This document shows, in pieces, positions 386-61,500 of a stretch of 64,000 nt of DNA. The notes under the pieces are model-generated. The model did no database searches. It was not told the origin of the DNA and was given only the letters and a program-made list of their open reading frames with translations. Each line of letters starts with the position of its first letter. The stretch's first letter is position 1. The DNA comes from Misgurnus anguillicaudatus. Lineage: Eukaryota; Chordata; Actinopteri; Cypriniformes; Cobitidae. Made by a program: the position numbers and the translations under genes. The stretch is taken from contig NC_073361.2 of assembly GCF_027580225.2 (NCBI RefSeq), forward strand, positions 20,531,001 to 20,595,000, given 5' to 3'.

Positions 386-1121
386 AGAGGAACACGCCCG
401 CATTTTGGGAATTTGGCTTGTTCATCGTATCCCCCGGAGTTGGATGGGTCCATGCGTACCTTTCTCATCTCCGTGCGTGCTGTGACTCTGTCTGACGCGG
501 CCCCCGCTGGCTTGGCTTGGCGCGGGGACTGGAGGTGGGTGGCTCCGGCTAGCACACTGCTCCCAATAATTGACAAAATAATGCGAACATTTTCCTATTT
601 ATATGTTGTGATTTGTATAGTCACAGCATGTACAAATAACAAGGTCATATGAGACACAACCAACCATTTAACCATATACATACTGGGAACTATACTCTCA
701 GAAAGCGAAGCACTGCTGCTGGGCGGATTGATTTGCTCGCAGCACCCGAGAAGCCCCCTGGTGAGGAGCAGAGAGTTCGGTCAGAGTTGTGCAAATCACT
801 CCGCCCAAGTAGCAGTGCTTTGCCTTCTGAGAATATAGTTCCCAGTATGTATACTGTTGAAAGATGTCTGTGTCTCATATGACCTTGTGATTTGTACCTG
901 CTGTGACTATACAAATCACAACACATAAATAGGAAAAATTGGGAGCAGTTTGCTGGCTGGAGCCATTCACTTCCAGTCTTTGTGCTAAGCTAAGCTAGCG
1001 GGTGCTGCGTCAGACAGAGTTACAGCACGCACAGAGATGAGAAAGGGTATGTATGGACTTATTTAACTCTGGGGGGTATAGTGAATAAGCTAAATTCCCA
1101 AAATGTGTGCATGTTCCTTTA
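386..1121. mobile_element. Long foldback element (~735 bp)
   Basis: The left half (386 to about 745) and right half (about 760 to 1121) are inverted copies of each other over nearly their whole length. Terminal stretches ggaacacgcccgcattttgg and its partner near 1095-1121 mark the ends. The right arm lacks a short segment present in the left arm around 565-585. Open frames inside it are by-products of the repeat. It has the form of a non-autonomous cyprinid foldback transposon; I assign no family name. Confidence 0.75.
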
Positions 1122-2570
1122 AGTCCAGGCGCTCTAATATTTTCTGGGTGCCGTGCCAGAGAGTGGGAACAACAAACTCGCTGGTTTTAACCCTCTGCTC
1201 GCCTAACAAGCTCTCTAGTGCAAGGAAAGGTCAGAGCCGTGCGCATTCAGGCCGAGCAAGAGTCCAAGACGCGTGCATTGAGTCCATGTGTGTGCGAGAA
1301 GGAATCTGCGCGCATTACAAGCTCTCTCGCGGAAAGTGAAGCCCGCAAACCCTCTCATGCGAGAAAAAGCATGCAATGTGCATGTTAATGTAAAACTATG
1401 ATAATAATAACGATTGCCAACATCATCGTGAAAGACTGGTATTAGCGATATGACAATCCTAAAATGTGAAACAGATTACCCAGGATTTTAATAACCTGGG
1501 GTTAACTGTTCTGGATCATTGCGTATCCATCCCTGATTCATCAAACCTTTGTAAACAATAACATGGAGACAGAGTTGCAAGCTTTGCAGAGTTTCATCAG
1601 TTTAAATGTGTTTTTTTGGTAACACTTTATTTTACGACCCGCAAAGTACCGCGTAATTAAACCGAATTTACAGCGTACCTATTTGTAACAACAGGGTACC
1701 TCTACAGTACGTACTTGTAGGTATAAGGGAATAATATTTTAAGTTTGGGGTAATAAGGGGGTAAGAATTATAAATTATTTATACTCTAAGTATTTTATAA
1801 CTACAGAGTACCTATTATAATATTACATGGTATGTATGACTTAGTCAAGTCTATGGGGAAATTATGTTTTATTTTAATGATTTTATTGTGAATTTTTCAT
1901 ATTGCCTACTGAATGTTGTATACAGTCGATGTCTACGAGCCACATCGGCAAATAAATATAACAGCACATCACTTTTATTTTAGAAGCCTATTACTTGCTT
2001 TTAAAAACAAAAGTCCAGCTGATTTAAAGTGGTTATCTTTTCTTTAAGGTAAGTACAATAAAGATAGCAACTTGTTCCCTATTTACCGGGAAACTCTTAA
2101 ATTTGCGGGCGCTTTGCAATTTATTTACTTTTATTTCAAATGACACAATAATGACCACAAAGCAGCACGCTATTTGTTTATTTTTAATAGGTGTTATCAT
2201 TGGTAGAATAAAACTTTGCAACATGTGTAAAGACAATTATTTTAGCCAAATATAATTATGCAATGGCAAACCAGAATGAAACAACAGCAGATATCAGCTC
2301 CCGCTAAAGCAAAAGACGACTACATGCGTAGGCTACTGCGCAGGTGTAGAGCGCGCGGCCGTCTGCAGGTTTGCTGGAACGCGATCCTGAGGTGAAATTT
2401 CTTTAAGAGGTTTTAAAAACTTTCTTCACTTTAATTTACAGCCCGCAAATGTGAGAGTTACTTGGTAACTCCTGTGTACATATACAGATCAAAGAGGTAC
2501 AAGTTGCTATTATTTTTATTGTGCTGTTATATTTTATTTGCCGACGTGGCTTGTAGACATCAACTGTAGC

Positions 2571-2712
2571 TATACAATACACTTCATCAGCAAATATGAA
2601 AAAAAAAACATATTAAACATAGACCATATTACCCATAGACGTATACAATACACTTCATCAGCAAATATGAAAAAAAAAACATATTAAACATAGACCATAT
2701 TACCCATAGACG
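2571..2712. repeat. 71-bp tandem duplication inside the TIR element
   Basis: Two almost identical 71-bp units lie head to tail. Both contain acttcatcagcaaatatg followed by an A-run. The related copy at 6131-7354 has only one unit, so this is a local duplication in copy 1. Confidence 0.8.
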
Positions 2713-2715
2713 TAA

Positions 2716-3071
2716 GCAACGCAGTCTCACACCCATGGCGTCAATATTTGACGACACTTGGCCCTTTCGCGTCATTTTTTGACGAACTAGGGACTTCAAT
2801 ACTATGAGGTACGCGAAATTCTCTTTCCTATTTTCTTACCATTTTCTACCATTTTCGCGTCAGTTTAGGGTTAGATTTACATAATGACATCCCTACCCAA
2901 ACCTATCCCTAACCCCAATGTCAGGTGACAACTGTTTAATTTCGCGAACCTAATAGTATTGAAGTCCCTAGTTCGTCAAAAAGTGACGCGAAAGGGGTAC
3001 CCTCCGCGTCAACATATTCACGCATGGTCAAGTGTCGTCAAATACTGACGCCATGGGTGTGAGACTGTGTT
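2716..3071. mobile_element. Nested MITE with 7-bp target duplication
   Basis: Inverted ends read cagtctcacacccatggcg on the left and its complement on the right, with further inverted homology inward. The 7-mer gacgtaa flanks both sides (2709-2715 and 3072-3078). The same site is uninterrupted in the copy at 6131-7354, which supports insertion here. Non-coding. Confidence 0.75.
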
Positions 3072-3301
3072 GACGTAAGTCATACATACCACGTAATATT
3101 ACAATAGGTACCCTGTAGTTATGAAATACTTAGAGAATAATTTCCCATATATTCTTACCCCCTTATTACCCCAAACTTAAAATATTGTTCCCTTATACCT
3201 ACAAGTATGTACTGTAGAGGTACTCTGTTGTTACAAATAGGTACGCTGTAAATTCGGTTTAATTACGCGGTACTTTGCGGGTCGTAAAATAAAGTGTTAC
3301 C

Positions 3302-4638
3302 GAAACATTTAATGGAAAAATAAAAAATGCTAAACAATGAACTTTTTTCCATACAGATTTATTGCCAGCATTTTAATATGAAAGTAGAAAAGTTGCTGAC
3401 AATTACTTTTTTATATACAGATTTATTGCCAGCATTTTAATTCATGAAATGAGAGTGGGAGGTGGAGGGACTCACGCGAGTCACTGCGCAACCAACATTA
3501 GGCTACCTATGGCAACGAAATGAACAAATTTTTCCTAGTATACATTTAAAAGTCTGGCAATAAAACATTTAAACAAACGCAGCAAACATTCACATCTATC
3601 TATGGACGTTTCTTTCTATGTGACTACAACTGAAAAATAAAGAAATAATATAAAAAAGCTAGCTGACTTTTTAAGTGCTTCTAAAGTTCATGGCTGTCAG
3701 AAAATAACAGGGCGTACTCGGTCATGGTCACGTGAAAAAGTGACGTCAATGCATACCCTCTATTAGGTATGTTCAATGTTACGCAGCGCTGCGCAGACAA
3801 AGTGGAAGATGACATCACAGTAGCGCGGGAGCGATTCAAAAGCACAGTTAAATTGATGATAACAATTTCAAAAGAAATCCACACGTCAGTGTTGTCAGGC
3901 TCGTATTCATCCATCCCTATGCTTTATGAGACAATATCGAGACAGCTTACTAAAACGGTAAGCCTGTACTTTTAGTCAGTTAGCATGATGACAGGTGGCG
4001 TCAACTTAGATGACAGATATGCCATTATAGCTTACATTGAAGTAGCCATAAATTAGAGGAAATACTATTAAAATAGTTAAATTATAGTGTAAGAAAATTA
4101 TAAAGATTAGCAAATTGTACATTTACAAATTTGCATTTACAATGATTTAGTTTTTGCGATATACTAGAATATGTTTTTCACATATTTTACATTATTGCAG
4201 CACCTCTTTTCCCAGTCTGTAATGCTGTTACTTCCAAACTCTATAAAGCCCCCCTTCTGAAACCGTTAACTTCTTCTGATTGGTCAGAGTAAGAGTGTTT
4301 TAAAATGCTTTGTCCTTCTGGTGCTTCGGAGCTTCAGATTTTCAGGTGTTATCCATGGTGTTATGTTTGGTGACTTTCACTTGAAAAGTGTATTTTTAAT
4401 TGAGTACACGAAAGTAAATGTACACAATTGTTATATTATACCAATCTTTTTAATACAGTGGAATTGCTTAGTATTAGGTTAGTATTGTTCAAAGTCTAAA
4501 ATTCAAAAATTATATAAAACCTAGAATCACCCCTGCATTTAGTTGTCATATAGTTATAAGTAATGATCAATTTCCTTCAGAGTTTTCAGCGCTTCATGTT
4601 TGAACTTGTTTGAAAAAAAATTAAGCTTGTTTTAGTTA
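3302..4638. other. Non-coding stretch; one weak exon-like frame
   Basis: No gene is recognised. A plus-strand frame from about 3769 ends at a good-looking donor (aaaacg then gtaagc, near 3958). Its ~63 residues match nothing I know, and a partner exon was not found. The right end probably includes the 3' untranslated region of the minus-strand membrane-protein gene. Confidence 0.35.
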
Positions 4639-8849: not shown

Positions 8850-9190
8850 GTAAAATAGTTGACAATGTATGATGTAAACTACATGAAACAATACCTTAAG
8901 TATACTTTAGTATGTACTATAGATAACTGTAGTAACATTTCTAGTAACGTTAGTGTTTTTGAACTTTACCATAATAAATATAAAAGTATACTATATTATA
9001 TACCATACACTATACTTATCTGTAGTATAGGCTACTATATTTTACTACAGTTAATAAGTTAATACTATAAAATATTGCAGTATACATTAACAAAGGATAG
9101 TAACAATATATTATAATATATAACAGTTACAGTATACTGTTTACAAAGTAAATACTAAAGTATACTACAGTATTTTTTCACGTATAGGAA
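8850..9190. repeat. AT-rich dispersed repeat
   Basis: The stretch is built from variants of tatactatagtaac and tactacagta. A similar stretch occurs at 28741-28940 in the shisa2 intron. It is non-coding and probably an old dispersed repeat. Confidence 0.45.
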
Positions 9191-9216
9191 AGATGACATG
9201 ATCTAAAAAAACACAT

Positions 9217-9452
9217 GGGGTGGTTTCCCGGACAGGGATTATTTTAAGCCAGGACTAGACCTTAGTTTAATTAGGAAATATAACTAGTTTTAACAAACAT
9301 GCCTTACTAAAAACATTACTTGTGTGCAATTTGAGGCAAAATAAAGGGCACTGATGTCTTTTAAGATATGTCAGTGCAAGTAGTTTTCAGTTTGGACAGC
9401 TCTTATTATTTTAGTCTAGGACTAGTCTAATCCCTGTCCAGGAAACCGCCCC
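9217..9452. mobile_element. Small palindromic-ended repeat (ggtttcccgg family)
   Basis: The ends ggtttcccggacagggatta and taatccctgtccaggaaacc are inverted copies. Related copies lie at 29938-30175 and 42713-43167, with a fragment near 38543-38665. It is about 235 bp and non-coding, in MITE style. Confidence 0.7.
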
Positions 9453-9510
9453 TATATAATTTTTTTCCCAAGTGTCACGGCTAACCATACATATGATATA
9501 AGTTATAACA

Positions 9511-10060
9511 TACCCTCACCTAAAGGATTATAAGGAACACCATACTAATACTGTGTTTGACCCCCTTTCGCCTTCAGAACTGCATTAATTCTTCGTGGCA
9601 TTGATTCAACAAGGTGCTGAAAGCATTCTTAAGAAATGTTGGCCCATATTGATAGGATAGCATCTTGTGGTTGCAGATTTGTGAGATGCACATCCAGGGC
9701 ACGAAGCTCCCGTTCCACCACATCCCAAAGATGCTTTATTGGGTTGAGATCTGGTGACTGTGGGGGCCATTTAGTACAGTGAACTCATTGTCATGTTTAA
9801 GAAAACAATTTGAAATGATTTGAGCTTTGTGACATGTTGCATTATCCTGCTGAAAGTAGTCATCAGAGGATGGGTACATGGGGCTCATAAAGGGATGGAT
9901 ATGGTCAGAAACAATGCTCAGGTAGGCCGTGGCATTTAAATGATGCCCAATTGGCACTAAGGGGCCTAAAGTGTGCCAAGAAAACACCCCCCACACCATT
10001 ACACCATTGCATTAATAAGAAATTGAACAGGTGCTCCTAATAATCCTTTAGGTGAGTGTA
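9511..10060 (-). mobile_element. Tc1/mariner-like remnant, ~550 bp
   Basis: The terminal sequence tcacctaaaggatta and its inverse near 10035-10060 are bounded by TA on both sides, the usual Tc1/mariner target. Only the C-terminal half of the transposase remains, on the minus strand. A second copy with the same ends and about the same internal deletion is at 32583-33119. Confidence 0.85.
9736..9999 (-). pseudogene. Tc1-like transposase C-terminal fragment
   Basis: The minus-strand frame contains the QQDNATCH-type motif of the DDE transposase catalytic region, preceded by VFSWHTLGPL. The frame is then lost near 9760. The expected SPDLNPI-type motif continues in another frame. It has no N-terminal DNA-binding domain. 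It is a dead remnant. Confidence 0.8.
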
Positions 10061-36001: not shown

Positions 36002-37074
36002 TGCTGAGGTGGGTAAAGTTAACATGCCATGCAGAATAGCAAAACTAGTGATAAATCAGATGGTCTCCCCTTTAAACTTAAGTCAAAGTTGCTGTGTATG
36101 GCTGGTTGGGATACACAAACAAACAGAGCGATGTTTTGATAGCACCATAGAGCCACACTGTTTACACTTTTTGGTGAAATCAACATACAGATGGCTTATT
36201 TATATGTGCGTATGAAGTGGGATAGACAAAAATATGAAAGCATTGAAAAGTAACACACAACAGCTTTAAAAGCAGAATTATGTTTGTGTGTTTTAACTGT
36301 ATGCCTGTGGGCAACTGTAGGCTACAGTACATGCATGTCACATTTGTGTGTAAGTAAAACTGAATGTGTAATTCAGGTTGAATGTGCCTTTCACCCCAAG
36401 AGCAGGATGCCATTTTTCTTTTACTTAAAAAAATAATTAAGTTTATAATAAATATTTTTAGAAACTGTTCAATGTTTTTGGGTTGTTTGTAAGAGATGCT
36501 GAGTACTGCTGTCAGCAGTATGTGAGGCAGTTTAAAATGAAGACATGCAGGACCTGTTTGCACCTCTACTATGACTAAATTAAACCAGAGTGATCCTGTT
36601 ACACACGGTGGCTGATTCCAGATCAGGTTGAGTGCTTTGACTATCATCACTCTTAGCATTTAAGATGAAACTGAGTCCTGGGGCCTAAACTTGCACGGCA
36701 CTAAATTTTGTGCAGTTTTCATATTAACAATTTGTGTAACTTTACAAATAAATGAATGTGCATTTATAAAACATGTTTCTATGCATGCTAGTAATCTTAA
36801 GGTTTTTAGTAATAATAATAATGTGTTTTATTCAGGCTACAGCGTTTTCACTTTATTTAGACTAAATTCATTTTCTGATATTACTATACTCCCATTGAGT
36901 TATAATGGGGCAGGGAACACGCCCATATAAGGGAATCTTTTTACACAGTGATCCATACTCACTGTCTTTTCCCTCGTCATTTGGAAACCGAAACCTTTTT
37001 ATTTTCCACAATGTATTTGTCCCAGAGGTCAGTTTAGTCGCTAACCAGACTGATAAACAAGCACAGACTAGAAG
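36002..37074. other. Non-coding stretch
   Basis: No gene or repeat family is recognised. A long minus-strand open frame at 36180-36659 has no match or splice context and is not called. Confidence 0.4.
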
Positions 37075-49500: not shown

Positions 49501-52500
49501 CACGTTATATTACGTACTGTAAACACAATCAAAGATTCAAAAACACAGAAAGAACGGGACCTTTAAAGGAATACTCCACTAATTTACTTCGGGAAAAGCT
49601 TCTAAAAAGGACTCTAACTGTGGGTTTACACCAAACGCGAAGCGTGCAATCGCATCGCGTTGCTCGCTCTAGATTACTCGCGGGATTTAACTCCGTGTCA
49701 TGCTAATTTTTCGCTCGAGTTGAAAATTTTCACGGTAAACACGCCGCCCATATCGCGTCATTCGCATCCCCCCACGCGAGGACGCGCCTGATTGGGTCTT
49801 TGCATAGACATTGTATGTAATCTACTCAAATCGCAAATCGTTGAACTTGCATCTGGTGTAAACCCACAGTTGAAGTAGGGCTGTCACGATTATGAAATTT
49901 GGCTAACTGTCAATTGCCTAATAAATTATGGCGATTATGACGATGAATTGCCTTTTTTTAGTGGTTTGACAATTATAATGATTGTCTGTTTTATTGCTTT
50001 GAAATTTAATTCTTATTCATTTTTGTTTGTTCATTAAATAATTTCACACGTTGTGATTATTTAAATGAAATCTTTTGCAAGAATTACCTGGCAGTAAATA
50101 TTAGTACACATAACACATTTAAAAGTATTTATTTAATGAATATATCTTTCAAAAACTGACAATTCTTCACAAGAAATAAACACAATAAAGTGTCTAAAAA
50201 ATACCTGAAAATCAAAATAAACTATACCAGAACAGGCCTAAAGAGTAGCCATCCTGCTAAGGTCATATTAGTACTGGACCACATGCCTGTAGTGGCTGCA
50301 AAAAAAAAAAAATTCCTGCAGCTCCCCCTTGTGTTTTTTAGAGAGATTTGCAATCATTGCGGTGATCTGAAATCATCACGATGAGGACAAACAGTCGCGA
50401 CGAGACGATTATTTAATCATTGTGACAGCCCTAAGTTAAAGATCCCAAACGAGTCATAAGGGTCTTATCTAGCGAAACACTTTTAAACCACAACTTCTCG
50501 TCTTGCACTAGCCATGTGATGCGCCAGCGCGACCTTACGTATTACGTAATCATGTTTATGTCTATTATATTATATTAAATCCTGGAATGTTTTCTTCAAA
50601 AAACATAATTTCTTCTCGACTGAACAAAGAAAGACATAAACTTGGATGACATGGGGTTGAGTAAAAAACCTAGATTTTTTATGAAAGTATAATATTCCTT
50701 TAAGCACTGCACAAACAGGTTTCATATTCTACTGCATGTACCGATTTATGTTTTTTATGCTTTTTTTAATGCTGCAAACTCGAACTTACGTGAAACGGTC
50801 TGCTGCACGGAGTTCGAGCGTCCCACGCTGGAGGGCGTTTTCCTGAAGACCCGTGTGAGAAGGTGGGCACGCTCGTTCAGACTGGACAGATAGAGAAAAA
50901 CGAATTATTCCACCAATCATGGCACACTTACTAACTGATACGCACACACATGAGTGACACTACAGGTCAAATCACATGCTGAGATATATTGACTAATATA
51001 TTTCACAGCCCTATATTTCTATAAAACACAATACTATATTCTGGAAAACAGTATATATACTTAACTAGATAGAAAAGTTTGAAGACAAACTTTATGTTGG
51101 CTTGACAAAGCCTGTCCTGAACGTTTAAAAAAGTTTGAGAGAAACTTAAAACAAGTTTAGTTTAGTAGTCTAACTTTCCGTAAACATGATTCAACAAAAA
51201 GTTAGCATGTTAACATGATTTAGCACTAAGTTAGCATGATGTTAACATGAATTAGCATGAGTAAGCATGATGCTAACATGAATTAGCATGAAGCTAGCAT
51301 GATGCTAACAAGAATTAGCATGATGCTAACAAGAATTAGCATGAAGCTAACAAGAATTAGCATGAAGCTAGCATGATGCTAACATGAATTAGCATGAAGC
51401 TAGCATGATGCTTACATAAATTAGCATGAAGCTAGCATGATGCTAACATGAATTAGCATGAAGCTAACATGAATTAGCGTGAAGCTAGCATGATGCTAAC
51501 ATGAATTAGCATGAAGCTAAAATGAATTAGCATAAAGCTAACATGAATTAGCATGAAGCTAGCATGAAGCTAACATGAATTAGCATGAAGCTAGCATGAT
51601 GCTAACATGAATTAGCATGAAGCTAGCATGATGCTAACATGAATTAGCATGAAGCTAGCATGATGCTAACATGAATTAGCATGAAGCTAGCATGATGCTA
51701 ACATGAATTAGCATGATGCTAACATTATGATAACATGAATTAGCATGAAGCTAACATGAATTAGCATGAAGCTAGCATGATGATAACATGAATTAGCATG
51801 AAGCTAACATGAATTAGCATGAAGCTAACATGATGCTTACATGAATTAGCATGAAGCTAGCATGAAGCTAACATGAATTAGCATGAAGCTAACATGAATT
51901 AGCATGAAGTTAGCATGATGCTAACATGAATTAGCATAAAGCTAGCATGAAGCTAACATGAATTAACATGAAGCTAGCATGATGCTAACATGAATTAGCA
52001 TGAAGCTAGCATGATGCTAACATGAATTAGCATGAAGCTAACTTGAATTAGCATGAAGGTAGCATGATGCTAACATGAATTAGCATGAAGCTAGCATGAA
52101 GCTAACATGAATTAGCATGAAGCTAGCATGATGCTAACATGAATTAGCATGAAGCTAGCATGATGCTAACATTAATTAGCATGAAGCTAACATGAATTAA
52201 CATGAAGCTAGCATGATGCTAACATGAATTAACATGAAGCTAGCATGAAGCTAACATGAATTAGCATGAAGCTAGCATGAAGCTAACATGAATTAGCATG
52301 CAGCTAACATGAATTAGCATGAAGCTAACATGAATTAGCATGAAGCTAGCATGATGTTAACATGAATTAGCATGAAGTTAGCAAGATTTACTATGAAATT
52401 AGCATAAAGCTAGCATGAAACTAGCATGAAGCTAGTATGACTTAGCATGAAGCTAGCATGAAGCTAACATGACCAAAAGACCCAACCCCCATGTCTCTAT

Positions 52501-55500
52501 GATTTTCGGATCCAGAGATATAAGGCTTTGTTTATTATGTTGCTAGGGTGCTCATATTTGGTTGCTAGGGGCGTGGCTTAATACCTCAATAAGAATCCTC
52601 AGAGACTGATTGGATGCCTGAGTAAAATGAGCCCACCCCCATGTCTCTTTGACACTGTGCTGCAAAGATATCCATCTGGGCATTTTATAATGGCAGTCTA
52701 TGGGATATGTTGCTAGGGTGCCCAAAAATGGTTGCTAGGGGCGTGGCTTAATAGCTATGGGACGATCCTGAGAGACTGATTGGATGCCTGAGTAAAATGA
52801 GCCTACCCCCATATCTCTACGACCCTCTAAAGTGAAGATATTCCATCTGGGACGCTTTTATTCCCTTATATGGGCATGTTTCCTGCCCCATTATAAGTCA
52901 ATGGGGAAATTTGGGTGCCTCTTACACCCCAGGGGTGAAACTTACACCCCAATGTGATGTATGTTCTTACAGAGCCTGCCAGCCTCTTCAAATGTGGTAA
53001 CGCACAAGTTTCTACAAACTTCTCGCTTGCAGCTATGACCCGTCAAAGTTTGTCGCAATGTTAAGTCAATGGAAAATTTGGGGTGTTTGAGCGCCCCGTT
53101 TAGGAATTCGGTAGGTCCCATCTGTTAGAAAAGTCATAGCACGCTAAGTCAGACCAGTCTGAAGACTTTTGGAAAGTTTGGTAAATCTAGCTTGAAAGCT
53201 CTAGGAGGAGTTACAGTCAGAAATTTTGGGGATCAGAAGAAAAATAATAACTAGATAGGTACATTTCCTGAAGAAAATGTGAAGTGGTGCTTGCCGTGGC
53301 AAATTTCGGGGGGCAATATATGATTATATGTCCAGTCACGAGTAAAACGATCCAAACCCCGTGTCTCTACGATGTTCTGATGCGGAGATATAAGGCTTTG
53401 TTTATTCTGTTGCTAGGGTACTGTATTTGGTTGCTAGGGAGAAAATTGGTATTCACTAGTGATTACACTCCGACTCACAAGTAAAACGGTCCAACCCCCG
53501 TGTCTCTACGATGTTCTGATGCGGAGATATAAGGCTTTGTTTACTCTGTTGCTAGGGTACTGTATTTGGTTGCTAGGGGAAAAATTGGCATCCACTGTTG
53601 ATTACACTCCGAGTCACAAGTCAAACGGTCCAACCCCCGTGTCTCTACGATTTTCTGATGCGGAGATATAAGGCTTTGTTTACTCTGTTGCTAGGGTACT
53701 GTATTTGGTTGCTAGGGAAAAAAATGGCATCCCATAGTGACTACACTCTGAGTCACGAGTCAAATGGTCCAACCCCCATGTCTCTACGATGTTCTGATGC
53801 GGAGATATAAAGCTTTGTTTACTCTGTTGCTAGGGTACTGTATTTGGTTGCTAGGGAAAAAATTGGCATCCCATAGTGATTACACGCCGAGTCACGAGTA
53901 AAACGGTCCAACCCACGTGTCTCTATGATGTTCTGATGCCGAGATATAAGGCTTTATTTACTCTGTTGCTAGGGTACTGTATTTGGTTGCTAGGGAAAAA
54001 ATTGGCATCCCATAGTGATTACACACTGAGTCACGAGTCAAACGGTCCAACCCCCGTGTCTCTACGATGTTCTGATGCGAAGATATACGGCATTGTTTAC
54101 TCTGTTGCTAGGGTACTGTATTTGGTTGCTAGGGAAAAAAATGGCATCCCATAATGATTACCCTCCGAGTCACGAGTCAAACGGTCCAACCCCCGTGTCT
54201 CTACGATGTTCTGATGCGGAGATATAAGGCTTTGTTTACTCTGTTGCTAGGGTACTGTATTTGGTTGCTAGGGAAAAATTGGCATCCCATAATGATTTCA
54301 CTCTGAGTCACGAGTCAAACGGTCCAACCCCCGTGTCTCTACGATTTTCTGATGCGGAGATATAAGGCTTTGTTTACTCTGTTGCTAGGGTACTGTATTT
54401 GGTTGCTAGGGGAAAAAATGGCATCCCATAGTGACTACACTCTGAGTCACGAGTCAAATGGTCCAACCCCCGTGTCTCTACGATGTTCTGATGCGGAGAT
54501 ATAAAGCTTTGTTTACTCTGTTGCTAGGGTACTGTATTTGGTTGCTAGGGAAAAAATTGGCATCCCATAGTGATTACACGCCGAGTCACGAGTAAAACGG
54601 TCCAACCCACGTGTCTCTATGATGTTCTGATGCCGAGATATAAGGCTTTATTTACTCTGTTGCTAGGGTACTGTATTTGGTTGCTAGGGAAAAAATTGGC
54701 ATCCCATAGTGATTACACACTGAGTCACGAGTCAAACGGTCCAACCCCCGTGTCTCTACGATGTTCTGATGCGAAGATATACGGCTTTGTTTACTCTGTT
54801 GCTAGGGTACTGTATTTGGTTGCTAGGGAAAAAATTGGCATCCCATAATGATTACCCTCCGAGTCACGAGTCAAACGGTCCAACCCCCGTGTCTCTATGA
54901 TGTTCTGATGCGGAGATATAAGGCTTTGTTTACTCTGTTGCTAGGGTACTGTATTTGGTTGCTAGGGAAAAAATTGGCATCCCATAATGATTTCACTCTG
55001 AGTCACGAGTCAAACGGTCCAACCCCCGTGTCTCTACGATGTTCTGATGCGGAGATATAAGGCTTTGTTTACTCTGTTGCTAGGGTACTGTATTTGGTTG
55101 CTAGGGAAAAAATTGGCATCCCATAATGATTACACTCCGAGTCACGAGTCAAATGGTCCAACCCCCGTGTCTCTACGATGTTCTGATGCGGAGATATAAG
55201 GCTTTGTTTACTCTGTTGCTAGGGTACTGTATTTGGTTGCTAGGGAAAAAGTTGGCATCCCATAATGATTACACTCTGAGTCACGAGTCAAAAGGTCCAA
55301 CCCCCGTGTCTCTACGATGTTCGGATGCTGAGATATAACTGTTTGAATTTTATGTTGCTAGGGTGCTCAAAAATGGTTGCTAGGGGCGTGGCTTAGTACC
55401 TATGTAAGGATCCTGAGAGACTGATTGGATGCCTGAGTAAAATGAGCCCACCCCCATGTCTCTATGACACTGTGGTGCAAAGATATCCATCTGGGCATTT

Positions 55501-58500
55501 TATAATGGCAGTCTATGGGAGATGTTGCTAGGGTGCTCAAAAGTGGTTGCTAGGGGCGTGGCTTAATAGCTCTGAGATGATCCTGAGACACTGATTGGAT
55601 GCCCGAGTAAAATGAGCCCACCCACTTATCTCTACGACACTGTAAAGCAAAGATATCCCATCAGGAACGATTTTATTCCCTTATATGGGCATGTTTCCTG
55701 CCCCATTATAAGTCAATGGGGAATTTTGGGTGCCTCTTACACCCCAGGGGTACAACTTACACCCCAATGTGATGTATGTTCTTACAGAGTCTACCACCCT
55801 CTTCAAATGTTGTAACCCACATGTTTTTACAAAATCCTCGAACGGAGATATGACCCGTCAAAAATGGGCGCAATGTTAAGTCAATGGGATTTTTTGGGTG
55901 GTTTTTCGCCCCCCTTTCGAAAATCGTGCACCCGATCCCTTATAAAAGTCATAGCACACCTCTCCTCAATAAACCGGTCAATTTGAGCCCTCATTCATGG
56001 GACTACGGCAAACCGTGCGGGACGAGTTAGGTGCCGAAAAAGTGTCCAGATATAAGAAGAAGAATAACTAGATAGAAAAGTTTGTTGACAAACTTTATGT
56101 TGGCTTGACAAAGCCTGGCCTGAACGTTAAAAACGGTTTGACAGAAGTTTAGTTTAGTAGGCTATCTGGCTTTTAGTATGTTTAAGTATGAAGCTAGCCT
56201 GATTTAACATAAAACTAGCATGATTAGCCTGAAGCTAGCATGAAGCTAACATGATTAGCATGAAGCTAGCATGAAGCTAACATGATTAGCATGAAGCTAG
56301 CATGAAGCTAACATGATTAGCATGAAGCTAGCATGATGCTAACATGAAATAGCATGAAGCTAGCATGATGCTAACATGAATTAGCATGAAGCTAGCATGA
56401 AGCTAACATGATTAGCATGAAGCTAGCATGAAGTTAACATGATTAGCATGAAGCTAGCATGATGCTAACATGTATTAGCATGAAGTTAGCATGATGCTAA
56501 CATGAATTAGCATGAAGCTAGCATGATGCTAACATGAATTAGCATGAAGCTAGCATGATGTTAACATGACTAAGCATGAAGCTAGCATGATGCTAACATG
56601 AATTAGCATGAAGCTAGCATGATGCTAACATGAATTAGCATGAAGCTAACATGATGCTAACATGAATTAGCATGAAGCTAGCATGATGCTAACATGAATT
56701 AGCATGAAGCTAGCATGATGCTAACATGAATTAGCATGAAGCTAGCATGATGCTTACATGAATTAGCATGAAGCTAGCATGATGCTAACATGAATTAGCA
56801 TGAAGTTAGCATGATGCTAACACGAATTAGCATGAAGCTAGCATGATGCTAACATGAATTAGCATGAAGCTAACATGAAGCAAACATGAATTAGCATGAA
56901 GCTAGCATGATGCTAACATGAATTAGCATGAAGCTAGCATGATGCTAACATGAATTAGCATGAAGCTAGCATGATGCTAACATGAATTAGCATGAGGTTA
57001 GCATGATGCTAACATGAATTAGCAGAAGCTAGCATGATGCTAACATGAATTAGCATGAAGCTAGTATGACTTAGCATGAAGCTAGCATGAAGCTAGTATG
57101 ACTTAGCTTGAAGCTAGCATGAAGCTAACATGACCAAAAGACCCAACCCCCATGTCCCTATTATGTTCGGATCCAGAGATATAAGGCTTTATTTATTATG
57201 TTGCTAGGGTGCTCATATTTGGTTGCTAGGGGCGTGGCTTAATAGCTCAATAAGAATCCTTAGAGACTGATTGGATGCCTGAGTAAAATGAGCCCACCCC
57301 CATGTCTCTGTGACACTGTGCTGCAAAGATATTCATCGGGGCATTTTATAATGGCAGTCTATGGGAGATGTTGCTAGGGTGCCCAAAAATGGTTGCTAGG
57401 GGCGTGGCTTAATTGCTATGGGATGATCCAGAGAGACTGATTGGATGTCCGAGTAAAATGAGCCCACCCACTTATCTCTACGACACTGTAAAGCAAAGAT
57501 ATCCCATCTGGAACGTTTTTATTCCCTTATATGGGCGTGTTTCCTGCCCCGTTATAAGTCAATGGGGAATTTTGGGGGCCTCTTACACCCCAGGGGTGAA
57601 ACTTACACCCCAATGTGATGTATGTTCTTACACAGCCTGCCAGCCTCTTCAAATGTGGTAAACCACAAGTTTCTACAAAATTCTCGCTCGCAGCTAGAAC
57701 CCGTCAAAGTTTGTCCAATGTTAAGTCAATGGGACTTTCGGAATTTTTATTTCCCGTTTTAGGAATTCTGTAAGTCGGATCCCTTCAAAAAGTCATAGCA
57801 CACTTCTTCAGACCAGTTAGAATGTCCGTGGAAAATTTGGTGGATGTAGCTTGAAAGCTGTAGGACGAGTTAGCTGCAGAAATTTAGTCTCAGAAGAAAA
57901 ATAATAATAAGTTTAACTACAACTAGATAGAAAAGTTTGTTGACAAACTTTATGTTGGCTTGACAAAGCCTGGCCTGAACGTTAAAAACGGTTTGACAGA
58001 AGTTTAGTTTAGTAGGCTATCTGGCTGTTAGTATGTTTAAGTATGAAGCTAGCCTGATTTAACATAAAGCTAGCATGATTAGCCTGAAGCTAGCATGAAG
58101 CTAACATGATTAGCATGAAGCAAGCATCAAGTTAGCATGATTAACATGAAGCTAGCATGATGCTAACATAAAATAGCATGAAGCTAGCATGATGCTAACA
58201 TGAAATAGCATGAAGCTAGCATGATGCTAACATGAATTAGCATGAAGCTAGCATGAAGCTAACATGATTAGCATGAAGCTAGCATCAAGTTAGCATGATT
58301 AGCATGAAGCTAGCATGATGCTAACATGAATTAGCATGAAGTTAGCATGATGCTAACATGAATTAGCATGAACCTAGCATGATGCTAACATGAATTAGCA
58401 TGAAGCTAGCATGATGCTAACATGAATTAGCATGAAGCTAGCATGATGCTAACATGAATTAACATGAAGCTAGCATGATGCTAACATGAATTAGCATGAA

Positions 58501-61500
58501 GCTAGCATGATGCTAACATGAATTAGCATGATGCTAACATGAATTAGCATGAAGCTAGCATGATGCTAACATGAATTAGCATGAAGCTAGCATGAAGCTA
58601 ACATGAATTAGCATGAAGCTAGCATGAAGCTAGCATGATGCTAACAAGAATTAGCATGAAGCTAGCATGATGCTAACATGAATTAGCATGAAGCTAGCAT
58701 GATGCTAACATGAATTAGCATGAAGCTAGCATGATGCTAACATGAATTAGCATGAAGCTAACATGATGCTAACATGAATTAGCATGAAGCTAGCATGATG
58801 CTAACATTAATTAGCATGAAGCTAGCATGATGCTAACATGAATTAGCATGAAGCTAGCATGATGCTAACATGAATTAGCATGAAGCTAGCATGATGCTAA
58901 CATGAATTAGCATGAAGCTAGCATGATGCTAACATGAATTAGCATGAAGCTAGCATGATGCTAACATGAATTAGCATGAAGCTAGCATGATGCTAACATG
59001 AATTAGCATGAAGCTAGCATGATGCTAACATGAATTAGCATGAAGCTAGCATGATGCTAACATGAATTAGCATGAAGCTAGCATGATGCTAACATGAATT
59101 AGCATGAAGCTAGCATGATGCTAACATGAATTAGCATGAAGCTAGCATGACGCTAACATGAATTAGCATGAAGCTAGCATGATGCTAACAGGAATAAGCA
59201 TGAAGTTAGCAAGATTTATTATGAAATTAGCATAAAGCTAGCATGAAACTAGCATGAAGCTAGTATGACTTAGCTTGAAGCTAGCATGAAGCTAACATGA
59301 CCAAAAGACCCAACCCCCATGTCTCTATGATGTTCGGATCCAGAGATATAAGGCTTTGTTTATTATGTTGCTAGGGTGCTCATATTTGGTTGCTAGGGGC
59401 GTGGCTTAATAGCTCAATAAGAATCCTTAGAGACTGATTGGATGCCTGAGTAAAATGAGCCCACCCCCATGTCTCTGTGACACTGTGCTGCAAAGATATC
59501 CATCTGGGCATTTTATAATGGCAGTCTATGGGAGATGTTGCTAGGGTGCCCAAAAACGGTTGCTAGGGGCGTGGCTTAATTGCTATGGGATGATCCAGAG
59601 AGACTGATTGGATGCCTGAGTAAAATGAGCCCACCCCCATGTCTCTATGACACTGTAAAGCGAAGATATTCCATCTGGAACGTTTTTATTCCCTTATATG
59701 GGCGTGTTTCCTGCCCCGTTATAAGTCAATGAGGAATTTTGGGGGCCTCCTACACCCCAGGGGTGAAACTTACACCCCAATGTGAGGTATGTTCCCACAG
59801 TGCCTGTCAGCCTCCTTAAATATGGTAAGCCACAAGTTTCTACAAATTTCTCACTCGGAGCTATGACCTGTCAAAGTTTGTCGCAATGTTAAGTAAATGG
59901 GACTTTTCGGAAGTTTTATGTCCCGTTTTAGGAATTCTGTAAGTCGGATCCCGTCAAAAAGATATAGCACACTTCTTTAGACCAGTCAGAATGTCCGTGG
60001 AAAATTTCGTGGATGTAGCTTGAAAGCTGTCGGACGAGTTAGCCGCAGAAATTTTAGTCTCAGAAGAAGAAGAAGAAGAAGAAGAAGAAGAAGAAGAAGA
60101 ATAATAATAAGTTTAAATACAATATCAGTATGTTGGCTTTGTCAAGCCAACATAATAACAGTATGTTGGCTTTGTCAAGCCAACATAATAATAACCGAAA
60201 GCAATAATAATAGTGATGCTTTGCATAAATGCAAGCACCACTAATAATAAGCTTAGATCGAAGAACAGTATGTTGGCTTTGTCAAGCCAACATAATAATA
60301 CTCAGTCGAGGGGAACACACATTTACACACACATGGCTTCCCAAACCACTCCTAACCTCAGCCCACCATCCAAAAACATCACATTGAATATTTCAACAGC
60401 ACTAAATCCTCAACATTCAAATCCTTCAAATAAAAACCTATCAATGTGAAGTATTTAACAGTTCACTGTTGTTAAATTATTATGTGTAATACAGAGCTCT
60501 CACTGTACTAAATTAAGTGAATCTATTGGCATTTTGCCCTTTAGTTTTTTTATGAAGAATTTGACTCTACTTTGATAAACAAGTCCTATGGTGTTTTCTC
60601 TGTAAATCAAATAAAAGCAACCCCCCCATCCATAACAGAGACAGTGATTCAAAAACCATCCCTAATGGAGGACGGCCAAACTTCTCAAGGTTACAGCTCA
60701 AACTGTACTGCGCTATGAAGGGGACCGTCTGCACTGTTATCATTGGGAAATACGTGGCATTCATTTGGCTGTGCTGTATTAAAATTCTGCAACAGTGTAT
60801 GAGATATGGCAGAACGTCTGCCAATGAAAACTATGTGTGTAAAACAGATGACCGGTTAAAAGAGGTGGATGATGAATGGATAAATAAAAAATACAAGTAT
60901 AGAATGATGTATTGGATCGGTGGTAATGGAAGCCCTTTTTTCAGAGTGTTTCTCCGGAGCATCGGACAAACCTCGGGATATAATCTGTGGTGTGCACGAC
61001 AGTTGTTTGATTAATCGCAATGGCAACAATTGATGTTTGGACAAGAGGAAAATACATCAGCTGTGTCCAGCAGGGTTGTCTGAGGTCTTCATGGGTCCAC
61101 AAAACCGCAACTTCAAAACTGATGCTTAATCATTTTTTACAAGTCACCCATTTTTACAGCTGGATATTTACTGAAACAAATGAAGTTAAGTGTGTTGCTC
61201 CGGGGTAATAAGGGGGTGTACCCAAACAGGGCTTACGGCCAATATCTCTCTGATTAGAAGTCCGTTCTGTCAACTCCCTGGCCATAAATTAGTGGCCTAA
61301 AGACCACAAAACACTCCAAAAACTGCTTGAGACTACGCATACATCTGCCAAATTCCTGTCTCATATAGGGCCTCGCACCAAACTCGATATGCAATGTAAT
61401 ATTCGGCAATATCTCTGGGCTAAAACCATTAGAAGTAAATCCACGCAATCACTCCATGCAGTCAGCCTCAAAACCACAAACGCAGTATGAAAACAAACAC

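Follow-up and report, generated by a model that had tools for sequence, protein, structure and literature searches.

Four satellite-bearing elements open one after another on the forward strand of the window, by which we mean the whole 64-kb stretch of loach DNA that was analysed, and their ends follow in a compact stack. The opening motif AACTAGATAG occurs exactly at 51063, 53249, 56066 and 57921 and has no further occurrence in the window. The terminal hairpins are likewise exact in the sequence, three being of family A (60129-60154, 60162-60187 and 60269-60294) and one of family B (60213-60243). With the A of ACTAG taken as base 1 of an element, the same four positions, given as starts in the earlier note, shift to 51064 (A1), 53250 (B), 56067 (A2) and 57922 (A3); the note's four starts and hairpins are all present, but the first base of the B hairpin is 60213 where the note has 60219. 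The closings, read from inner to outer, are 60154 (A3), 60187 (A2), 60243 (B) and 60294 (A1).

51064..53249, + strand: layer 1, A1, outermost, from its 5' end to its 3' body, ending at the AAT run entered by B
51093..51112, + strand: 5' subterminal inverted repeat TATGTTGGCTTGACAAAGCC of A1
51200-52472, + strand: A1 minisatellite, about 32-bp unit
53250..56066, + strand: layer 2, B, with 5' end, minisatellite and 3' body ending at the AAT run entered by A2
53334-55338, + strand: B minisatellite, 139-bp unit, 14.4 copies
56067..57921, + strand: layer 3, A2, from its 5' end to the tail core ...AACTACA, the entry point of A3
57922..60154, + strand: layer 4, A3, innermost and intact, ACTAGATAG...CCAACATA, tail subtype tttaaatacaatatcag
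60129..60154, + strand: A3 terminal hairpin
60155..60187, + strand: remainder of the A2 tail (ATAACAG) and hairpin 60162-60187
60188..60243, + strand: remainder of the B tail and hairpin 60213-60243
60244..60294, + strand: remainder of the A1 tail (gcttagatcgaagaacag) and outermost hairpin 60269-60294

After its 5' end, A1 consists of a short inverted repeat, the subterminal inverted repeat, the minisatellite and a 3' body that matches an intact a1-type copy at 93.5% (the gcttagatcgaagaacag references being nearest), while the 3' body of A2 matches intact copies in L048 and L050 at 99.85% (the tttaactacaataacag references being nearest). The subterminal repeat TATGTTGGCTTGACAAAGCC is also found in A2 (56096-56115) and A3 (57951-57970), and its exact inverse is present in all three A hairpins; in A3, the 3' part of the hairpin (60135-60154) matches the 5' repeat without a mismatch when reverse-complemented. 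No match was obtained with Rfam at the gathering threshold in the window, and the exact A hairpin had 0 matches in collections of viral and prokaryotic contigs.

The order of families alone is weak evidence for nesting, as an A, B, A, A mirror is not very improbable. We accept mirrored nesting in the window because of the tail subtypes, the restored joins and the recurrence of the structure at many unlinked loci. The three A layers differ in tail subtype, and going outward the successive tails are those of A3, A2, B and A1. In leave-one-out prediction, the 3' body gave the correct tail subtype in 12/12 A, 2/2 Ap and 2/2 As copies. B tail subtypes are in general less well predicted, and the body nearest to that of the window B (95.1%) bears a B tail subtype different from the one observed. 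Joining both sides of each insertion yields a normal tail at all three internal joins; for A2, ...AACTACA and ATAACAG combine to AACTACAATAACAG, the exact uninterrupted subtype of L048 and L050. The claim of a real four-element bracket nest is thereby upheld, and the expectation that mirrored nests would occur elsewhere is borne out by like structures at many unlinked loci.

The innermost start-end pairs were family-concordant in 35/35 cases. In a family-level order test, the outer tail matched the last open start in 18/24 cases, compared to 32% in shuffles (P 0.0002), but this test does not discriminate between last-in-first-out (18/24) and first-in-first-out (17/21) closing. The choice between the two was made on subtypes, joins and predicted upstream starts. 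In this test, tails of class tttaaaagc whose loop is TTTGTC were typed as A, which produced a seeming violation in L050. The bodies of L050_4802 and L048_2279 are 99.2% identical and, when parsed last-in-first-out, both close on the tttaaaagc class with tails one base apart, one surplus tail being skipped in the parse of L048_2279. Surplus tails apart, tails close in the reverse of the opening order in the readable clusters, a set that leaves out the L046-L048 cluster and the giant clusters.

Stacks of unmatched tails also specify which starts should lie upstream. In L042, the unmatched tails read B, A, A, A from inner to outer, so that the upstream starts should run A, A, A, B. Those listed there are A at 21903366, 21905844 and 21908016 and B at 21910503, and C2 has no further exact start of the A, Ap or B type upstream back to 10.496 Mb. 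The three A bodies are of the required subtype (98.9, 99.4 and 98.9% to a2, versus 93-94% to a3 and about 90% to a1). The L044 stack requires one upstream A, and one is listed (32806961), a match at the level of presence only. Both requirements follow from earlier tail data and were put in words only after the start lists were known. The finding of these starts strengthens the earlier proposal of repeated self-insertion.

The ends of the elements were fixed by a solo copy in L035 for which a paralogous empty site exists. Its joined flanks align with the uninterrupted paralogue over 116 bp at 92%, with 3 mismatches and 6 gap positions, the latter about 25 bases from the junction; nothing is duplicated at the target. 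By this one empty-site paralogue, the hairpin is the true 3' end and no tail follows it, in agreement with the earlier reading of the terminal hairpins as element ends. Insertion separates an A from the following AT (on the opposite strand, T^T) and leaves no target duplication. A^AT is the reading on the strand of the 3' hairpin and may correspond to the published T^T orientation.

Among 67 starts examined, all preceded by A, 62 fall within another copy's terminal zone (58 assigned by an automatic rule and 4 by eye). By position, 29 are in an AAT run, each after a body end recognisable by eye, 17 abut the 3' end of a resident hairpin, 10 lie in a residue of a few bases past it, 2 are in the tail core and 4 were placed by eye elsewhere in the tail zone, leaving 5 with non-element left flanks. 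Repeated insertion into the terminal zone of a previous copy thus stands, whereas a target restricted to the AAT tail upstream of the hairpin, as first proposed, does not, given the starts at the hairpin 3' end and just after it. The innermost element of the window likewise did not enter an AAT run, as had been thought, but the A2 tail core (TACA^ATAAC), its entry point being separated by 7 bases from the hairpin that starts at 60162.

Genome-wide, there are 1,166 exact A/Ap starts and 1,764 B starts; the latter are nearly equalled by 1,815 B tails, both B counts allowing up to one mismatch and reversed-pattern controls giving 0. In the part of the genome for which both lists are complete, 191/195 exact starts fall into 15 clusters, the largest of 199 kb, and neighbouring pairs share the same strand in 176/176 cases, in keeping with repeated self-insertion. 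Only four of these 195 exact starts are single, one of which (L043) is actually nested in a B element with a degraded start. The complete cluster at C1:17.28 Mb contains 8 starts, 8 bodies and 11 tails, three of them surplus; L039 and L048 have one surplus tail each, and L037 gave no clean parse. Many stack segments of 95-163 bp are common to several loci; as tails recur everywhere, these shared segments speak neither for nor against the movement of multi-tail blocks.

The nesting could be real without any recognition of the resident element, the target being any AAT/ATT run or A-AT step. The 29 starts in AAT runs and the invariant preceding A fit such a target, as does the T-rich site preference described for HINEs in PMC4067079. 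Several observations point the other way. None of the 6 outermost copies with a read left flank lies in an AAT run, the (short) AAT stretches of the window at 36810 and 38472 carry no start, and 27/67 starts are located at or just past the 3' end of a hairpin and not in the AAT run preceding it. The rarity of single starts is also unfavourable, given that AAT microsatellites are common in animal genomes. We consider a generic target possible, but rather unlikely.

Growth of the array by unequal recombination or segmental duplication, or by rolling-circle copying that runs on beyond a first terminator, has a precedent. Tandem Helitron arrays in bat, silkworm and plant centromeres also form clusters, and some loach copies abut directly as well; PMC4067079 and PMC5148889 ascribe such arrays to missed termination (in the former, those of bat and silkworm) or to circular intermediates. 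The surplus tails in some stacks would agree with such growth, as would the nearest relatives of all 58 sampled bodies, which were in the same cluster in 16 cases versus 8.7 expected (P 0.022). Tandem growth would, however, place each end before the next start, as in those arrays, whereas here the starts come first and the ends close in reverse. Mirrored subtypes, restored joins and upstream starts derived from tail stacks are not predicted by it either, and where a sampled body has a relative within 2% (22 cases), that relative lies in a different cluster in 20. Such growth as the source of the array is therefore very improbable.

The structure of the elements is close to that of HINEs, non-autonomous relatives of Helentrons. 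They have subterminal inverted repeats at both ends, a 3' hairpin, central tandem repeats (the minisatellites of about 32 bp and 139 bp) and no target duplication at one empty site and three internal joins. No transposase gene of their own was seen, there being no stop-free stretch of 170 codons or longer in window positions 50000-61500. The genome contains 114 Helitron_like_N matches. One of these, a Rep near a cluster (L058), carries the Helentron signature FYRVEFQQRGSPHIH, in which the S of Rep motif 2 is preceded by F/Y..R, according to the signature given in PMC4067079. A Helentron-type Rep is thus present in the loach genome beside the HINE-like elements. Next to the Rep genes searched, no autonomous element with A or B ends was found: the hairpins nearest to three of these genes, at a distance of about 10 kb, are those of ordinary A elements, and the C3 cluster, probed for partner ends, yielded an Ap copy without a 3' body.

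Canonical Helitrons begin with 5'-TC, end with CTRR-3' and insert between A and T. We rejected this class, as ends of the form ACTAGAT... and ...CCAACATA or ...CACCACTA and insertion at A^AT do not fit it.

Retroposons with short tandem 3' repeats offer another parallel, since their 3' ends resemble the AAT-rich tails. SINE-like elements might accordingly have entered their own tails by target-primed reverse transcription. The tails and the insertion into them are the attraction of this possibility. Against it stand the empty-site paralogue without target duplication and the precise 5' ends of the 67 listed starts, where retroposons would show target duplications and frequent 5' truncation; the list covers copies that have a start, not truncated ones that lack it. 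Paired inverted repeats at the 5' and 3' ends and a 3' end formed by a terminal hairpin with no tail beyond it are equally at odds with a SINE or other non-LTR retroposon, and we give this origin only a very slight chance. Long minisatellite arrays are hard to assemble, but an assembly artefact at 60129-60294 deserves next to no credence, as none of the hairpins is part of a minisatellite, the tails are of different subtypes and become whole again at the joins, and, at the level of the assembly, many unlinked loci in large contigs follow this grammar with other content.

We conclude that the region is likely a four-deep nest of non-autonomous Helentron/HINE-type elements that insert at A^AT beside a resident 3' hairpin. 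Each element begins with ACTAGAT..., followed by short and subterminal inverted repeats, a central minisatellite and an AAT-rich tail, whose closing hairpin carries an inverted copy of the 5' subterminal repeat. A Helentron Rep-helicase, of which genes are present in the genome, may be supplied in trans. The transposase would recognise the 3' hairpin or the tail of a resident copy as the place to land and would nick a neighbouring A^AT, and the polarity of the tail sequence could set the orientation of the insertion. Each new copy would provide a fresh tail and hence the next target, giving a telescoping nest. Surplus tails may reflect later deletions between homologous bodies, in which starts are lost and tails kept. 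Whether the elements have evolved a self-directed specificity, in which the rolling-circle transposase docks at the resident 3' hairpin and new copies land no more than tens of bases away, in one orientation and seldom at other sites, we judge to be evenly balanced. If it is, a cluster would be a push-down stack whose starts and reversed tails form a readable insertion history, and the transposon would multiply in clusters of up to about 200 kb by landing mostly in its own copies.

The layers could not be dated by divergence. In 11/23 parent-child pairs, the parent showed the greater divergence from its closest relative in the sample; this comparison of 3' bodies, in a sample covering part of the copies, gave no dating signal. 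The expectation that the innermost layer is the youngest is not supported, although the outer two layers of the window are the more diverged (A1 6.9% and B 5.3%, compared to 0.2% for A2 and 0.5% for A3).

HINE/DINE-1 elements and Helentrons, as described by Thomas et al. (2014, PMC4067079), share with the loach elements subterminal inverted repeats at the 5' and 3' ends, a 3' palindrome, central tandem repeats, lack of coding capacity, absence of target duplication and a T-rich target; DINE-1 also has a short inverted repeat near its 5' end. The placement of the repeats differs from that published for HINEs, as here they lie about 30 nt from the 5' end and terminally at the 3' end, inside the hairpin. 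Insertion largely into resident terminal zones, uniform polarity and stacked tails are further differences; in the passages of that source consulted, tandem arrays and clusters are mentioned and mirrored nests are not.

FoHeli of Fusarium, of the Helitron2 type, resembles the loach elements in its asymmetric terminal inverted repeats and non-canonical ends, in self-insertion and in composite elements with multiple termini; PMC5148889 reports one nested case, several copies with duplicated 5' termini and one near-tandem case. In contrast, self-insertion is the rule in our sample (62/67), and the multiplied termini are ordered 3' tails. Cg_HINE of the Pacific oyster likewise has satellite-like arrays between conserved flanks and inserts without duplication, into oligo-T targets. 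It is described as dispersed, and nesting into tails goes unmentioned in the passages of PMC7492417 consulted, whereas the loach elements are nested. In the partial literature covered, including sections of PMC6431247 and PMC4778049, we found no report of mirrored Helentron-type nests with tail-directed self-insertion.

Helitron-type elements have been documented to self-insert occasionally; in the loach, self-insertion appears to be the usual way, with a constant polarity and a landing zone centred on the 3' hairpin of the element itself. What guides Helentron-type rolling-circle transposons to their target thereby becomes a testable question. If confirmed, the nests would be a natural case of transposon targeting through recognition of the transposon's own end and a route by which satellite-bearing elements reach large repeat arrays. 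They would also hold a built-in, ordered record of insertions that could be dated against sister species.

The motif AACTAGATAG was found exactly at the four element starts given in the earlier note, window positions 51063, 53249, 56066 and 57921, with no fifth occurrence in the 64-kb window. These open four nested layers of two element families, A1 (outermost), B, A2 and A3 (innermost), each of which closes with an AAT-rich tail and a terminal hairpin. All four hairpins are exact in the sequence.

60129-60154, hairpin of the innermost layer (A3)
60162-60187, hairpin of A2
60213-60243, hairpin of B
60269-60294, hairpin of the outermost layer (A1)

The minisatellite unit measures 139 bp in B and roughly 32 bp in all three A layers. 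The 139-bp units (window 53334-55338) match a 3'-body segment common to A and B at about 85-90%, so that the B satellite seems to have grown from the element's own body. Every A hairpin includes a portion that exactly inverts the 5' subterminal repeat TATGTTGGCTTGACAAAGCC. Among copies of A and the further family Ap, the 3' hairpin loops (TTTGTC, TTTTTC) seem by eye to track the corresponding letters of the 5' subterminal repeat (GACAAA, GAAAAA), a correspondence which suggests co-evolution of the two ends. Elsewhere in the window, positions 2571-2714 hold a perfect 71-bp tandem duplication.

In order to define the element termini, we used a solo A copy (L035) whose locus also contains an insertion-free paralogue of the host sequence. 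The joined flanks align to the empty paralogue over 116 bp at 92%, with 3 mismatches, 6 gap positions (the gap about 25 bases away from the junction) and no duplication. This alignment fixes the termini: judged from this one empty site, the element is ACTAGATAG...CCAACATA, or an indistinguishable version moved along by one A, and it entered between A and AT. The hairpins are true element ends at this site, so that the solo copy does not refute the earlier note's reading in the way the note had allowed for. An A precedes 67 of 67 starts in the sampled loci.

The mirror-image closing claimed for the window was borne out at the level of tail subtypes for the A layers: the tails run A3, A2, B, A1, and the three A layers are distinct in subtype. 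On its own, the order of families (opening A, B, A, A; closing A, A, B, A) gives no strong evidence. Across 20 loci and the window, the innermost start-end pairs agreed in family in 35/35 cases. Leave-one-out prediction of the tail subtype from the 3' body was correct for 12/12 A, 2/2 Ap and 2/2 As copies, and poorer for B. This rule assigns the tttaactacaataacag tail to A2 and the gcttagatcgaagaacag tail to A1; A3 is intact, with tail tttaaatacaatatcag. A3 interrupts the A2 tail within its diagnostic core, 7 bases ahead of the hairpin. Once rejoined, the A2 tail is identical to the unbroken subtype of L048 and L050, two loci whose copies share 99.85% identity with A2 in the 3' body. A rare tail class also closes unlinked copies in these two loci, with bodies 99.2% identical.

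In a family-level shuffle test, the outer tail fitted the last open start in 18/24 cases (32% expected, P 0.0002); first-in-first-out did equally well (17/21), and the test cannot separate the two orders because most cases have a single open start or a single family. At subtype level, the informative closings are those for which the earliest and the latest of the open starts are of unlike type. All of those in the window, L042 and L050 were last-in-first-out, as were those in L039, L048 and the cluster at C1:17.28 Mb after skipping surplus tails, which lack a matching start.

The tail stacks also require starts further upstream. In L042, the outer tails (B, A, A, A from the inside outwards) had no starts in the stretch first read, and the genome search placed A starts at 21903366, 21905844 and 21908016 and a B start at 21910503; going back to 10.496 Mb, C2 has no further exact start of A, Ap or B in the lists. 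The three A bodies match a2, the subtype that their tails call for, at 98.9, 99.4 and 98.9%; their identity is 93-94% to a3 and some 90% to a1. The cluster parses as A(A(A(B(B)(B)))), its 6 starts balanced by 6 tails. L044 requires one upstream A start, which is listed at 32806961, and parses as A((B)A(B)), with 4 of each. Both requirements were fixed by the tail stacks, yet written down only once the start lists were in; the test covers L042 and L044, the clusters of testable size, L046-L048 and the giant clusters lying outside it. The tail stack of L034 calls for As starts.

Insertion sites were surveyed for non-degraded starts in 20 loci anchored on A hairpins on C1 and C2, from 71 regions, a sample biased to loci with A tails. 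Of the 67 starts, 29 lie within an AAT run, each, by eye, behind the recognisable body end of another copy, and 4 more were placed by eye in a tail zone. A further 17 abut the 3' end of another hairpin, 10 sit in residue past a hairpin and 2, A3 among them, in a tail core; 5 have other left flanks. Together with L054, those 5 make up the six outermost copies with a left flank that was read, and 0/6 lie in an AAT run.

Surplus tails are found in the complete cluster C1:17278764-17296513 (8 starts, 8 3' bodies, 11 tails), where the outermost Ap and B close correctly and three tails (B, B, A) are left over. L039 and L048 have one each, and L037 gave no parse. Such tails may stem from deletion between homologous bodies of nested copies, which would remove starts and keep tails, and would leave an outermost surplus tail of the same family as the surviving start. 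This prediction of the deletion model fits C1:17.28 and L048, and L039 with one added assumption. Read-through transfer of multi-tail units, recorded for Helitrons (PMC4778049), is another possible source.

Searches of the genome (61 contigs, 1,120,239,901 bases), whose counts are lower bounds, gave at least 524 + 549 A hairpins (up to 3 mismatches), 571 + 595 exact A/Ap starts, 815 + 949 B starts and 887 + 928 B tails (both up to 1 mismatch); reversed-pattern controls gave 0 for all four patterns. On C1, C2 and C3 up to 13.83 Mb, where both exact-start lists are complete, 195 exact starts fell into 15 clusters (gaps below 40 kb) and 4 singletons, and neighbours shared their strand in 176/176 pairs. 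One singleton, L043, is actually nested within a B whose start is degraded. Two clusters are giants of one orientation.

G000:C2:10296595-10495489, the largest, 62 exact starts in 199 kb
C3:4236438-4389885, 34 exact starts in 153 kb

Among other loci, the L040 stack (8899-9650) has 14 tails in succession. G000:C1:12415350-12436480 has 7 exact B starts and 9 exact B tails, 7 of the tails inside 0.4 kb; the two absent starts could have their place in a 6.7-kb stretch without exact A, Ap or B start. In L031 (9532), the outermost hairpin of a nest is directly followed by ACTAGATACACTCTTTAAC..., perhaps the start of another, unrecognised family with the first eight bases in common. In an Ap element of L059 (700-780), the satellite passes straight to the tail without the shared 3' body.

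The expectation that the innermost layer be youngest found no support: nearest-relative divergence gave no general sign of older outer layers (11/23 pairs). A relative within 2% was found for 22/58 bodies, in a different cluster for 20 of the 22, and the nearest relative lay inside the own cluster for 16/58 (8.7 expected, P 0.022), so that the sampled recent copies appear to have their nearest relatives mostly elsewhere, with some local component.

Helitron_like_N had 114 matches in the genome, many within long open frames, and none in 14 control genomes. Among the A hairpin matches listed, an exact one lies within 25 kb of 8/23 Rep matches (C1, C3-C6), on the same strand for 6 and the opposite for 2; C2 has no Rep match. 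Near three of these Rep matches, the hairpins were those of ordinary A elements, and no ends of an autonomous partner came to light there. On the minus strand of L035 (about 850-4420 in plus coordinates), a neighbouring element has a 1,190-codon open stretch, followed by a stop and 229 open codons in frame. The 1,190-codon stretch contains TVSIIGDGSCYFRA, which we take to be an OTU-protease-like motif, and a partial Helitron_like_N match lies farther on along the same strand. A single Rep was read, on the minus strand at C5:16453733; in it stands FYRVEFQQRGSPHIH, which PMC4067079 describes as the signature of Helentrons (rolling-circle transposons with a Rep-helicase).

Nesting, polarity, insertion site and lack of duplication can be read directly from the sequences of the loci examined. 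We infer the enzyme, the strand transferred and the recognition of the hairpin: Rep would nick and peel an A or B copy, on the model proposed for other rolling-circle transposons, and the copy would enter at A^AT next to a resident 3' hairpin. Tail polarity would fix its orientation, and the fresh tail would become the next target.

Canonical Helitron ends, as generally known, are absent here. As far as the accessible text of these sources goes, the anatomy fits HINEs, the non-autonomous Helentrons (PMC4067079), including oyster Cg_HINE (PMC7492417), and the ends are asymmetric, like those of Helitron2-type elements (PMC5148889). Self-insertion and tandem arrays are already described in the same portions of PMC5148889 and PMC4067079, where self-insertion is neither the standard mode nor in mirrored stacks. 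In the loach loci sampled, by comparison, self-insertion looks like the standard mode, with stacks that are mirrored.
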